From contig DVMP01000141.1 of assembly GCA_018714925.1 (NCBI GenBank), forward strand, positions 1 through 32,291: a DNA stretch of 32,291 bases, given 5' to 3'. Origin of the DNA: Candidatus Allocopromorpha excrementigallinarum. Its GTDB lineage: Bacteria > Bacillota > Clostridia > Peptostreptococcales > Anaerovoracaceae. Positions 21,037-26,711 of the stretch are shown here, one piece after another. Below the pieces are notes generated by a model. That model was given only the letters and a program-made list of their open reading frames with translations. It made no database searches and was not told the DNA's origin. Both the position numbers and the translations under genes were made by a program. Within the stretch, counting starts at the first letter, position 1, and each line of letters opens with the position of its first letter.

Positions 21037-24000
21037 TTACATAGATGTAAAATATTTTACTCCTGATTCAAATATCCTCTGATCCTTCTGACCGCCGACG
21101 TTTTTATAGAGATTCTCCCCGATTCTTTCGGAATGTCCCATTTTACCCAGAACTCTTCCGTCAGGCGAGGTTATTCCCTCTACAGCCATCATTGATCCGT
21201 TGGGATTGAAGCTTATGTCCATGGAAGGCTTTCCGCTGAAATCCACGTACTGAGTGGCTATCTGTCCGTTTTCCGCCAGCTTTTCAAGAAGTGATTCTTC
21301 CGCTATGAACCTTCCCTCTCCGTGAGATACTGGTATGGTGAAAACGTCTCCTGGCGAAACTCCCGCCAGCCACGGCGATTTAACCGACGTTATACCGGTT
21401 CTCACAAGGCATGAGGCGTGTCTTCCTATGGTGTTGTAGGTAAGAGTAGGACTGTTTTCATCCATTTCGGATATTCTTCCGTAAGGCACCAGTCCCAGCT
21501 TTATCAGCGCCTGGAATCCGTTGCATATGCCCAGCATAAGGCCGTCTCTTTCTTCAAGCAGCTCTGTAACCGCGTCTTTTACGGCAGGATTCCTGAATAC
21601 GGCGGTTATGAACTTGGCCGAGCCGTCAGGCTCGTCTCCTCCGGAAAATCCTCCCGGAATCATTATCATCTGGCTTTCTCTTATTTTTTTCTCAAGAGCT
21701 TTTATGGACTCCTCAAGCTGAGCCGGTGTGAGATTCCTTATTATGTGTATATGGGCGTCGGCCCCGGCCTTTATAAAGGCTCTCGCCGAATCCATCTCGC
21801 AGTTGGTTCCCGGGAACACAGGAATTACCACCTTAGGCCTGGCTGTTTTAACGGCGGGAGCGGAGGCGTTTCTCTCCTTCCAGAAAGGAATTTCGGGGCT
21901 TCCCTTTTCCTCCTCTCCCGATACCCTTACCGGGAATATTTTTTCAAGAGGCTGCTGCCATTTTTCAACCAGAGCCTTCAGATCCTCCTCTTCTCCGTTT
22001 ATCCTTATAACAGCCTTTTCCGTTGTTTTTCCTATAACCGTATAGGCGGAGCCGCTCAGAAGGCTGTCAGCGTCTTCTCCCGAAGGCAGCTCCAGAAGAA
22101 GGGAGCCGTACATAGGCGAAAGCATATCTCCCTGTATTTTCACATCAGCTCCCGTAAGGTTTCCCGCGGCCATTTTCACAAGGGACATGTACAGGCCGCC
22201 TCTGCCTATGGTGCCGGCCGCCAGGAGCTTTCCCTTTTCCGCCAGCTCTCTCACCCTGGCCATGTTGTGTCTGTAGACCTCAAAATCTATGACGCCGTTT
22301 TTGTCCACAGGGGCCGTTACGGCGGCTATGACGCTTCCCGGCTTTTTAAATTCAGGCGATATAACCTCTCCCGCCGAAACTGCTGTTATGGCGAAGGAGG
22401 CAAGGGTAGGCGGAACGTCTATATCCATAAAGGTTCCCGACATGCTGTCCTTTCCTCCTATGGACGGTATGCCCAGCTCTCTCTGAACCGTAAGGGCTCC
22501 CAGAAGAGAGGCCACAGGCTTTCCCCATCTTGAAGGATCAGACCCCAGCTTTTCAAAGTACTCCTGGAAGGTCAGCCTTGTTTTTCTGTAATCTCCGCCC
22601 ATGGCGGCAATCTTTGTAACCGAGTCAACCACAGCGTAGAGGGCTCCGTGGAAAGGACTTGCCGATGACAGCTCCGGATCAAAGCCGTAGCTCATAAGTG
22701 TGGCCGTGTCCGTGCTTCCTTCCGTAACAGGCAGCTTCGCCGCCATTCCCGAAGCAGGAGTAAGCTGATACCTTCCTCCCAGAGGCATAAGAACCGTAGC
22801 CGCTCCTATGGTGCTGTCAAACCTTTCTATAAGGCCTTTTTTGCTGCAGCAGTTAAGGTCCTCTATCAGCTGCTCCTTTGATTTCTTTTCCTTCAGTATA
22901 TCCGAAAAGGCAGTCTTTGAATCTTTTTCCTCTGATTTCCCGCCGGGAGCGGCCACATATGCTCTGGCAAACTGCCTGGCTCCGTTGGTGTCCAGAAATT
23001 CTCTGCTTATATCGAGGATGACCTTTCCTCTCCATCGCATCCTCACTCTCCCGGTGTCTGTAACCAGGGCCACTTCTGTGGCCTCCAGATTTTCCTCCCG
23101 GGCGTAGCTTATAAACTCTTCCTTTTTATCCGCGGCCACCACTACGGCCATACGCTCCTGAGATTCGGAAATGGCCAGTTCAGTTCCATCCAGTCCCTCG
23201 TATTTTTTAGGAACGGCGTCAAGGTCTATTTCAAGGCCTTCAGCCAGCTCTCCTATGGCGACTGACACGCCTCCGGCGCCAAAGTCGTTGCATCTTTTTA
23301 TGAGAACCGCCGCTTCCTTTCTTCTGAACAGCCTCTGTATATTTCTCTCCACAGGAGGATTTCCCTTCTGAAGCTCGGCGCCGCACTGAAGTATGGACTC
23401 CTCCGTATGCTCCTTGGATGAGCCTGTGGCTCCTCCGCAGCCGTCTCTTCCCGTTCTGCCGCCCACCAGGATAATAACGTCTCCCTTTTCGGGCTTCATT
23501 CTTCTTACGTGATCAGCGGGAGCCGCTCCCACGACAGCGCCTATTTCCATTCTCTTGGCCACGTAATTCTCGTGATAAACCTCATCCACAAGTCCGGTGG
23601 CAAGGCCTATCTGGTTGCCGTATGAGCTGTAGCCGGCGGCAGCCTCTCTGGTTATTTTTCTCTGAGGAAGCTTGCCGCTTATGGTTTCCTCCACAGGCCT
23701 TCTTGGATCGGCCGCTCCTGTGACTCTCATGGCCTGATAAACATAGACTCTTCCCGAAAGGGGATCTCTTATGGCTCCTCCCAGACAGGTGGCGGCTCCT
23801 CCGAAGGGCTCTATTTCAGTAGGATGGTTGTGGGTCTCGTTTTTGAACATAACCAGCCAGTCCTCTTTTCTGCCGTCTATATCCGCCTCTACCTTTATGC
23901 TGCAGGCGTTTATCTCCTCAGATTCGTCAAGATCGGGTATCATGCCCATTCCCTTCAGGTATTTGGCTCCTATACAGGCCATATCCATGAGACAGAGGCT

Positions 24001-24807
24001 CTTTTCCCTTTCTCCGTAAACCACGCCTCTCATCTCCATGTATTTGCCGAAGGCTTCCTTTACCAGCTCTCCGTACCGGCTGTCCTCAAAGGAAATCTCC
24101 TCCAGCTGCGTGTTAAATGTAGTGTGTCTGCAGTGGTCGGACCAGTAGGTATCTATAACTTTAAGCTCCGTAAGGCTTGGATCTCTTTTTTCATCCTCTC
24201 TGTAATATTTCTGTACAAACCTTATGTCCTCGGGACTCATGGCAAAGCCCATTTCCCTTCTCCAGCTTTCAAGGCTTTCCTCATCCATGGTGATAAAGCC
24301 GCGGACTACAGCCACATCGTCTGGCTCCGGATATTCCGTTTCAAGAGTATCAGGCTTTTCATTTTCGGCTATGCGGGAATCCACAGGATTTACGCAGTAT
24401 TCCTTTACAGCCTCCGCCTCCTCCTTTGTGATCCTCCCCTCAAGGACTATGACTCTGGCGAATCTCACCCGGGCCTCTGCCTCCCGGTTCATAAGCCTTA
24501 TACACTGGGCCGCCGAATCGGCTCTCTGATCGTACTGTCCCGGCAGGTACTCCACCGCGAAAAAAATTGCAGAACTCAGCTCTTGAGGCATCGTCTCCTC
24601 GTAGACGATGTCTACAGCAGGTTCTGCAAACACTGTGGCTCTCGCCGCCGCGTATGTTTCGTCATCTATCCCGTCGATGTCGTATCTGTTGAGTACTCTT
24701 ACTCCTGTCAGGCCCTGAAGGTGCAGGTTCTCCTTTATATCCTCAAAGAGCCCCGCAGCCTCCACATCAAAGCCTTTTTTCTTTTCAACGTAGATTCTTC
24801 TTACCAT
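21037..24807 (-). CDS. purL: Phosphoribosylformylglycinamidine synthase, large single-chain form with C-terminal glutaminase domain
   Basis: 1256 aa; FKNETHNHPTEIEPFGGAATCLGGAIRDPLSGR; C-terminal glutaminase PGTNCEMDSARAF, LMLGICNGFQALIKLGLVP (Cys present), PVSHGEGRF. Confidence 0.97.
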   Translation of the reverse strand: MVRRIYVEKKKGFDVEAAGLFEDIKENLHLQGLTGVRVLNRYDIDGIDDETYAAARATVFAEPAVDIVYEETMPQELSSAIFFAVEYLPGQYDQRADSAAQCIRLMNREAEARVRFARVIVLEGRITKEEAEAVKEYCVNPVDSRIAENEKPDTLETEYPEPDDVAVVRGFITMDEESLESWRREMGFAMSPEDIRFVQKYYREDEKRDPSLTELKVIDTYWSDHCRHTTFNTQLEEISFEDSRYGELVKEAFGKYMEMRGVVYGEREKSLCLMDMACIGAKYLKGMGMIPDLDESEEINACSIKVEADIDGRKEDWLVMFKNETHNHPTEIEPFGGAATCLGGAIRDPLSGRVYVYQAMRVTGAADPRRPVEETISGKLPQRKITREAAAGYSSYGNQIGLATGLVDEVYHENYVAKRMEIGAVVGAAPADHVRRMKPEKGDVIILVGGRTGRDGCGGATGSSKEHTEESILQCGAELQKGNPPVERNIQRLFRRKEAAVLIKRCNDFGAGGVSVAIGELAEGLEIDLDAVPKKYEGLDGTELAISESQERMAVVVAADKKEEFISYAREENLEATEVALVTDTGRVRMRWRGKVILDISREFLDTNGARQFARAYVAAPGGKSEEKDSKTAFSDILKEKKSKEQLIEDLNCCSKKGLIERFDSTIGAATVLMPLGGRYQLTPASGMAAKLPVTEGSTDTATLMSYGFDPELSSASPFHGALYAVVDSVTKIAAMGGDYRKTRLTFQEYFEKLGSDPSRWGKPVASLLGALTVQRELGIPSIGGKDSMSGTFMDIDVPPTLASFAITAVSAGEVISPEFKKPGSVIAAVTAPVDKNGVIDFEVYRHNMARVRELAEKGKLLAAGTIGRGGLYMSLVKMAAGNLTGADVKIQGDMLSPMYGSLLLELPSGEDADSLLSGSAYTVIGKTTEKAVIRINGEEEDLKALVEKWQQPLEKIFPVRVSGEEEKGSPEIPFWKERNASAPAVKTARPKVVIPVFPGTNCEMDSARAFIKAGADAHIHIIRNLTPAQLEESIKALEKKIRESQMIMIPGGFSGGDEPDGSAKFITAVFRNPAVKDAVTELLEERDGLMLGICNGFQALIKLGLVPYGRISEMDENSPTLTYNTIGRHASCLVRTGITSVKSPWLAGVSPGDVFTIPVSHGEGRFIAEESLLEKLAENGQIATQYVDFSGKPSMDISFNPNGSMMAVEGITSPDGRVLGKMGHSERIGENLYKNVGGQKDQRIFESGVKYFTSM

Positions 24808-24898: not shown

Positions 24899-25038
24899 TG
24901 AGTTTTCGGGAGTTTTCCCTCAAAAAACCTCTCCTCCTCTCTCCCGGGGACCTTCTGCCATATTATACACATGACCCTTTCAATATATCTTCACATTAAC
25001 AACTCAAAAACAGCATATTGGACTGCTATTATATAGTC

Positions 25039-25243
25039 ACAGCAAAGGAAAATGCTGTTAATGAATACAGAGGGCTGAGCAGAACAACACTTCTTCTTCT
25101 CAAAACCATAAAAATACAAGTACAGCGCAAAGGCCCTCAGCGAATATTCATCAATAACCACCTCTCCTAATTAAAACAGCAACTAATAATGACAACAGGG
25201 CAGGAGCGCCGCAGATGATTCTGACGGCGCTCCTGTTCTTTTT
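25039..25243 (+). ncRNA. Candidate structured small RNA (identity unknown; 6S RNA is one possibility)
   Basis: Extended -10 TGCTATTAT at 25024-25032; nested complementary segments ATGCTGTT/AACAGCA, TGAATA/TATTCA, GAGGGC/GCCCTC; ends at a strong terminator hairpin; no credible ORF. Confidence 0.5.
25201..25243 (+). terminator. Strong intrinsic terminator, plus strand
   Basis: CAGGAGCGCC-GCAGATGATTCTGAC-GGCGCTCCTG (10-bp perfect stem) followed by TTCTTTTT; no annotated plus-strand gene precedes it. Confidence 0.8.
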
Positions 25244-25312
25244 GGTTTCGGTTTGAAATTGTGCCGGCCTGGCGGCTGTTGACCTGAAGCGCCGGGTTTT
25301 CTCCCTGTTTTC

Positions 25313-25386
25313 CATTATGAAGCCGCGCCTGAGGGAGAAATTCAGGAGCCCGGAGCTGTCCGGGGAAGGTGCGGCGGCTTTTTTCT
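25313..25386 (+). terminator. Terminator-like hairpin with T-run, plus strand
   Basis: AAGCCGC ... (inner hairpin CCCGGA-GCTG-TCCGGG) ... GCGGCTTTTTT. Confidence 0.4.
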
Positions 25387-25612
25387 ACCGCAACTATTCC
25401 CATAATTTTAATTTCAGGGAGAAAAATATTGCGCGCTAAAGCGTTAAAGTAAAACTTTTTGACATAAATACCATAAAATGGAAATATTTCTCCCTAAATG
25501 GCCTTCCATAATTCAAATATGGGAGAAATCGCCTGCGGCAGCATAGTATGTACATGAATCAGTGCAGGATTTCTCCCTCAGAAGCGAATTATCGGAATAG
25601 TTGCGGTAGAAA
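25382..25612. repeat. Inverted-repeat element (MITE-like candidate) with 19-bp perfect terminal inverted repeats
   Basis: TTTCTACCGCAACTATTCC (25382-25400) is the exact reverse complement of GGAATAGTTGCGGTAGAAA (25594-25612); similarity continues inward (ATAATT, AGGGAGAAA); internal hairpins; no ORF. Confidence 0.6.
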
Positions 25613-25790: not shown

Positions 25791-26711
25791 TCAGTCCAGA
25801 GCGCTTAAATACCTTTCTCCCGTGTCAGGGAGTATAACAACTATTCTCTTTCCTCTGTTTTCTTCTCTGGCGGCGACGATTCCCGCTCCGTAGAGGGCGG
25901 CTCCCGAGGAAATCCCCGCCAGAACGCCTTCTTCAGCGGCAAGGGCCTTCATGGTCTCAAAGGCTTTGTCGTCTTCCACTGTAATAATCTCGTCTATAAG
26001 CTCTCTGTCTAAAACATCGGGTATGAAATTGGCTCCTATGCCCTGTATTTTATGAGGGCCCGCCTTGCCCTGGGACAGAAGCGGCGAAGCCGCCGGCTCC
26101 ACTGCCACGATCCTTATGTCAGGGTTTTTCTCCTTGAGGAATTTTCCCGCTCCGGAAAGGGTTCCTCCCGTTCCGAAGGCTGAGACGAATATGTCCACTT
26201 TTCCGTCTGTATCAGCCCATATTTCAGGACCCGTAGTCATATAGTGAGCCTGTGGATTTGCCGGATTCTCAAACTGTCCTGCTATAATGCTCCCTTCAGT
26301 TTCCCCGGCCAGCTCAGCGGCCTTATCGACGCTGCCCTGCATTCCCTTTTCCCGAGGAGTCAGCACCAGCTCGGCCCCCAGAGCCTTAAGCAGCTTTCTT
26401 CTTTCAATGCTCATGCTTTCCGGCATGACCATTATTGCTCTGTAGCCTCTGGCCGCGGCGGTCATGGCTATTCCCACTCCCGTGTTGCCGCTGGTAGGCT
26501 CTATTATAGTTCCTCCCGGCTTCAGCCTTCCGCTTTTCTCCGCTTCAATAATCATGTTGAAGCCTACCCTGTCCTTTACGCTGCCGGCGGGATTAAATGA
26601 TTCCAGCTTTCCTGTGATTTCTCCCTTGGCCTTGAAAAGCTTTTCCATCTTTTTAAGCCTCAGCAGAGGAGTCCCCCCGATGAGATCTGTAACCGATTCT
26701 CTTATTTTCAT
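25791..26711 (-). CDS. cysK: Cysteine synthase A (O-acetylserine sulfhydrylase)
   Basis: DLIGGTPLLRLKK, FNPAGSVKDRVGFNMI, IIEPTSGNTGVGIAM, VSAFGTGGTLSGAGKFLKE, GISSGAAL. Confidence 0.97.
   Translation of the reverse strand: MKIRESVTDLIGGTPLLRLKKMEKLFKAKGEITGKLESFNPAGSVKDRVGFNMIIEAEKSGRLKPGGTIIEPTSGNTGVGIAMTAAARGYRAIMVMPESMSIERRKLLKALGAELVLTPREKGMQGSVDKAAELAGETEGSIIAGQFENPANPQAHYMTTGPEIWADTDGKVDIFVSAFGTGGTLSGAGKFLKEKNPDIRIVAVEPAASPLLSQGKAGPHKIQGIGANFIPDVLDRELIDEIITVEDDKAFETMKALAAEEGVLAGISSGAALYGAGIVAAREENRGKRIVVILPDTGERYLSALD

Follow-up and report, generated by a model that had tools for sequence, protein, structure and literature searches.

The window (the whole stretch of DNA analysed, 32,291 nt) carries, on the plus strand of the gap between purL and cysK, what looks like a genuine small RNA (sRNA) gene at 24979-25243, in which a regulated promoter is predicted to start a transcript of about 205 nt that would end at an intrinsic terminator. 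By sequence comparison this predicted RNA is a member of an undescribed multicopy family, and we place at roughly 0.6 the probability that the family consists of trans-acting, anti-Shine-Dalgarno (anti-SD) sRNA siblings, run by an OmpR/PhoB-family stress regulator that also controls HtrA, which would block the Shine-Dalgarno regions of mRNAs. All of the evidence is computational and comes mostly from incomplete metagenome-assembled genomes. The parts of the locus are as follows.

21037-24807, minus strand: purL, FGAM synthase
24979-25022, plus strand: predicted regulator box, four half-sites TTCAATATATC / TTCACATTAAC / AACTCAAAAAC / AGCATATTGGA at 11-bp spacing
24981, 24992, 25003 and 25014, plus strand: core C positions of the half-sites, from the alignment of sibling promoters
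25024-25032, plus strand: extended -10 TGCTATTAT, read from the sequence and kept in siblings
25039-25243, plus strand: predicted small RNA of about 205 nt, from promoter and terminator positions (start inferred about 7 nt past the -10, end placed at the T-run)
25039-25058, plus strand: 5' hairpin P1, ACAGCA 25039-25044 with TGCTGT 25053-25058, from arm permutation and the MFE fold
25062-25150, plus strand: outer stem P2, TGAATA 25062-25067 with TATTCA 25145-25150, from arm permutation
25070-25138, plus strand: inner stem P3, GAGGGC 25070-25075 with GCCCTC 25133-25138, from covariation (models R1 and R2)
25090-25101, plus strand: conserved pyrimidine loop CUUCUUCUUCUC, from comparison of homologues
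25158-25169, plus strand: anti-SD segment CCACCUCUCCUA, a CCUCC-type motif in siblings, predicted unpaired
25184-25196, plus strand: purine/U tract CTAATAATGACAA, counterpart here of the AAUGAUAAUGAUGA element
25201-25243, plus strand: intrinsic terminator, 11-bp GC-rich stem plus T-run
25201-25211 and 25225-25235, plus strand: terminator arms CAGGAGCGCCG and CGGCGCTCCTG, then TTCTTTTT at 25236-25243
25791-26711, minus strand: cysK

Every sequence element named in a preliminary description of this DNA, which had proposed a plus-strand sRNA here, was found in its place, with the letters at 25052-25059, 25062-25067, 25070-25075, 25090-25101, 25133-25138, 25145-25150, 25158-25168 and 25175-25181 as claimed, and the terminator and the extended -10 were likewise confirmed in the sequence. 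The terminator was computed at -30.8 kcal/mol. Only short reading frames overlap the gene, and a small protein was rejected as a candidate, the sole plus-strand frame of at least 20 aa (25018-25170) beginning upstream of the RNA start placed at 25039. Between the sRNA terminator and cysK there is also an inverted-repeat-rich stretch (25289-25612), with 43-nt arms at 25382-25424 and 25570-25612 that are 84% complementary and with GGGAGAAAT/ATTTCTCCC repeated several times; from its sequence it is possibly a MITE-like element.

Upstream of the family members, 36 sibling promoters form a gapless alignment of 69 nt, and the core cytosines in columns 6, 17, 28 and 39 are present in 36, 36, 34 and 36 of them, respectively. 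These mark four half-sites, of the types TTCA-N6-CTTCACA and GCATA, at exactly 11-bp spacing and followed by the extended -10, which we take to be the layout of tandem OmpR/PhoB-type response regulator dimers.

Searches with the promoter model gave matches in 45 of 49 genomes of the genus, and 24 of the same 49 were matched by a covariance model built on the internal hairpin. Strong promoter matches number two in the source genome and one or two in most genus genomes, the assemblies being incomplete; the second copy in the source genome (contig C163), a partial match at first, proved to be a full sibling. Across 395 genomes of the order the hairpin model found no genus beyond the RNA's own, in a search that scored few candidates per genome and from which weak members may escape. 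Loci with one short block each (L009, L010) were discarded as likely to be chance matches, and L045, L051, L052, L056 and L060 were left out likewise. Where a record containing members is named, it is as uncultured Clostridiales or Bacillota, and jejunum is one of the sources given. The purL-cysK position is retained in several relatives (G031, G039 and G048 carry the RNA beside purL, there in its short form), and the other common home of the family is the bioY/birA neighbourhood. That the gene neighbourhoods of members differ argues for action in trans. Purine or one-carbon control is not indicated by these positions, since the family has at least one chromosomal home besides the purL side, and the shared promoter site directs attention to htrA. 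Literature on small RNAs in the host family was searched with no useful result.

The promoter search uncovered further siblings, many of 84-113 nt, which are without the hairpin and keep the promoter, a CCUCC-type segment, a AAUGAUAAUGAUGA-like tract and the terminator. The hairpin bearing CUUCUUCUUCUC is thus an optional module, which the window copy has, upon a conserved core. Among 46 sibling RNAs, CCUCC, CCUCUCC or CCUUCC occurs in 42 (shuffles give an expectation of 4.2), and the AAUGAUAAUGAUGA-like tract, between the anti-SD segment and the terminator and with no evident pairing role, in 37 of 46 (0.6 expected), these expected counts serving as a guide only because the motifs were defined after the sequences had been seen. 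A terminator was detected by script in 46 of 54 members.

Within the hairpin module, covariation in relatives, which had been named beforehand as a check on this RNA together with an Rfam scan, is strong. All nine pairs of P3 show double-sided changes over 26-29 members, with 53-57 such cells vs 13-14 in shuffles, a level reached by 0 of 500 shuffles; because the sequences had been aligned to fit the model, the alignment-free arm test is the cleaner one. By this test, which leaves sequence relatedness in, the arms of P1, P2 and P3 each fit their own RNA better than they fit other members' arms (0 of 2000 permutations each). The TGAATA/TATTCA and GAGGGC/GCCCTC pairings proposed earlier are upheld as P2 and P3, relatives pairing different letters at the same places. 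The long-range pairing of ATGCTGTT (25052-25059) with AACAGCA (25175-25181) fell away: it is not conserved, and TGCTGT at 25053-25058 pairs instead with ACAGCA at 25039-25044 in the conserved 5' hairpin, which the MFE fold of the window RNA contains.

Both pyrimidine segments, earlier described as largely unpaired, are conserved. The anti-SD segment is predicted to be unpaired at 0.90 in the window RNA, in agreement with that description, but the CUUCUUCUUCUC loop at only 0.45 (mean 0.92 over 24 members). The CUUCUUCUUCUC loop is invariant in the 7 founding members and near-invariant in the remainder; the apical loop ACACUUCUUCUUCUCA hardly varies, and UUCCCC often comes next. Over the family, the anti-SD segment (0.56-0.59) is no better exposed than the remainder of the RNA (0.59-0.63). 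With promoter, structure, anti-SD segment and terminator conserved family-wide, there is good support for a plus-strand sRNA that includes an anti-SD-like segment, and partial support for the preliminary interpretation taken as a whole.

The same promoter site, in the same register, stands before htrA, the gene for an envelope protease of protein quality control. Using a profile trained solely on sRNA promoters, 20 of the 40 weaker matches in the genus (E above 3e-6) were found directly upstream of htrA, in its orientation and 0.5-1.3 kb before the TIGR02037-matched part of HtrA; the chance of such a placement is about 0.0006 per match, although the htrA promoters are orthologous and not independent, so that a binomial figure for 20/40 overstates the case. 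Of 28 htrA upstream regions, 24 outscore the 99th percentile set by 244 control genes. The source genome's own htrA, whose product has Trypsin_2 and PDZ domains, scores -16.1, and the best control that is not an sRNA promoter -17.7, the two top-scoring controls among the 244 being sRNA promoters themselves. With the -10 columns removed the htrA signal was weaker (7 of 28 above the 99th and 22 of 28 above the 95th percentile), but the htrA group as a whole was still higher-scoring. A motif search for a two-component system adjoining htrA saw none in 8 loci. Outside the genus but within its family, the profile picks up clpB promoters that have CIRCE-like repeats, further CCUCC-bearing sRNAs and an HtrA-like gene (L190, so called by inspection of its first 135 residues, in which there is no Pfam match). 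By these sequence comparisons, a site common to the sRNA promoters and htrA is well supported.

Several features were seen around these related sites. At most of the htrA loci viewed (among L242-L247 and L249), a gene with an Hsp33-like start (M..ALIAIDKS..YRVYI, named by eye) is transcribed away from htrA. At L183, L186, L187 and L211, in other genera, clpB-like promoters have TTCACA-type direct repeats beside CIRCE-like TTAGCACTC/GAGTGCTAA, a sequence arrangement that suggests dual control of clpB by HrcA and an htrA-type regulator in those genera. Genus g51 has a related sRNA type (L172, L173, L181, L182, L184, L188, L189, L191 and L209) in which GAAACCTCCATATAACATTTTCCATATAATACCT, an anti-SD plus anti-start CAU, is followed by a terminator, and a second putative sRNA type (L175, L177, L180 and L185) with a similar promoter, AAACCTTTTTCTTTTGATTGTTCTTTCTTA and a terminator.

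The 11-bp direct repeat of OmpR/PhoB type in the sRNA promoters would also suit PhoB, switching on the same sRNA family in phosphate starvation in place of an HtrA-type stress regulator, and an 11-bp repeat, TTTTACATAGATTTTACATA, is also present in the genome's own pstS promoter, where its spacing to the -10 is almost identical. Control by PhoB is nevertheless disfavoured, and we consider it quite improbable, because with the sRNA promoter profile the own pstS scores as background (-47.3 vs a control median of -49.9, and -16.1 for the own htrA), a comparison that uses the own pstS only, as the automatic promoter set had the neighbouring gene in several loci. In addition, most genus genomes are without any pstS match (the figure given is 18/49) yet have an sRNA promoter. 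The RNA might alternatively titrate a protein or the ribosome and not pair with mRNA, the 16S-tail-like ACACCUCCU and the AAUGAUAAUGAUGA tract acting as decoys; the conservation of that tract without a pairing role would fit, as would the several siblings that read ACACCUCCUUC, which is close to the 16S 3' end. This we regard as unlikely, since the CU-rich anti-SD segments of Firmicute sRNAs with such a layout pair with mRNAs where studied (PMC3091779, PMC4132741) and there is no known binding protein for the present RNA.

Two further explanations concern the window locus itself. A position between purL and cysK, with one or other neighbour retained in several relatives, could be that of a cis-acting leader, a 3' end or a by-product of purL or cysK transcription, but both genes lie on the opposite strand, the RNA has a promoter and terminator of its own, and the same RNA is found in other neighbourhoods such as bioY/birA, so that we judge a cis origin very improbable. 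In favour of the preliminary suggestion that this is the 6S RNA of the organism are its length of about 205 nt and its rod-like fold, a likeness to 6S RNA (RF00013) in length and in the long stem of the long form, and the fact that RF00013 matches nowhere else in the genome. When 4227 covariance models of Rfam 15, RF00013 included, were run against the window, nothing reached the gathering score, and at E<=10 there were three chance-level matches only, all outside the RNA, so that neither RF00013 nor another family matches over it. Against 6S RNA stand also the two copies in the genome, siblings of 84-113 nt that lack the rod, and a conserved part that is an anti-SD core and not a promoter-like bubble; a 6S identity is accordingly rejected, the faintest of prospects aside. 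As a separate matter, no RF00013 6S RNA was found in the source genome (91% complete), where it may be missing, divergent or unassembled.

The preferred reading, of trans-acting anti-SD siblings under an HtrA-controlling regulator, has its closest parallel in the streptococci, where CiaRH drives htrA and the csRNAs (PMC3091779; PMC12826053), the latter being RNAs of 51-202 nt with anti-SD sequences, two to six per genome (PMC3091779). Like the csRNAs (PMC3091779, PMC4507080), the present RNAs are intergenic siblings with an OmpR-type direct repeat at 11-bp spacing, an anti-SD segment and a terminator; the csRNA gene layout, promoter then terminator, recurs here in RNAs of 84-246 nt (median 141), and as the CiaRH regulon includes htrA, so the present sRNAs share their promoter site with htrA. 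They differ in that the CiaR box is TTTAAG-N5-TTTAAG, whereas the 36 promoters have TTCA/TTCACA half-sites; in that an anti-start CAU beside the anti-SD segment is, by inspection, not consistent in the present genus, though genus g51 sRNAs do carry one (CCUCCAUAUAACAU); in the extra covarying hairpin module; and in belonging to a different order of Firmicutes, with no sequence similarity noted. The present RNA is not filed as a csRNA because it lacks the CiaR box and the consistent anti-start codon, but by analogy the system most likely works like the csRNA system.

LhrC1-5 of Listeria are likewise CU-rich sRNAs in several copies, controlled by LisRK, a two-component system that responds to cell-envelope stress, and in them several CU-rich sites, in a loop and a single-stranded stretch, block a Shine-Dalgarno sequence (PMC4132741). 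They differ from the present RNAs in sequence and promoter and use CUCCC/UCCC motifs; the passages cited show no htrA link, and a LisR consensus was not known to their authors. In Bacillus subtilis, CssRS is the secretion-stress regulon controlling htrA (PMC6749698, PMC12826053), and the CssR box, given as TTTTCACA (PMC6749698), resembles TCTTCACA and TTTTCAACAC of the present promoters. A literature search on CssR, small RNAs and secretion stress returned no title describing a CssR-run sRNA.

From the computed gene, family, structure, conserved anti-SD segment and htrA-shared site we infer transcription, the identity of the regulator, the stress signal and mRNA targeting. An OmpR/PhoB-family response regulator, of the CssR or CiaR type, would drive both the sRNAs and htrA, with envelope or secretion stress as the signal that raises htrA and fires the trans-acting sRNAs, of which a genome has one or a few siblings. 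The exposed CCACCUCUCCUA, aided by the CUUCUUCUUCUC loop, would pair with Shine-Dalgarno regions of target mRNAs and block 30S binding. Certain proteins, probably secreted ones or those of the envelope, would thus be made in smaller amounts when HtrA is raised. As a more speculative extension, which we hold to be doubtful, the family may be a modular translational switch with a core made up of promoter, anti-SD, AAUGAUAAUGAUGA and terminator. Under envelope stress this core would imitate the 16S tail and so reduce initiation on many mRNAs simultaneously, the CUUCUUCUUCUCAUUCCCC hairpin of some copies being a later addition that provides a second target site, and the logic of htrA plus anti-SD RNA having arisen separately from streptococcal CiaRH.

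This amounts to a predicted stress sRNA regulon for uncultured Clostridiales of gut and rumen that form a large genus, and since its promoter site is defined and its loop near-invariant, its targets can now be sought. Together with the CiaRH csRNAs and LisRK LhrC, the present family suggests that Firmicutes have repeatedly come to couple HtrA, or envelope stress, with sets of sRNAs that block ribosome-binding sites.
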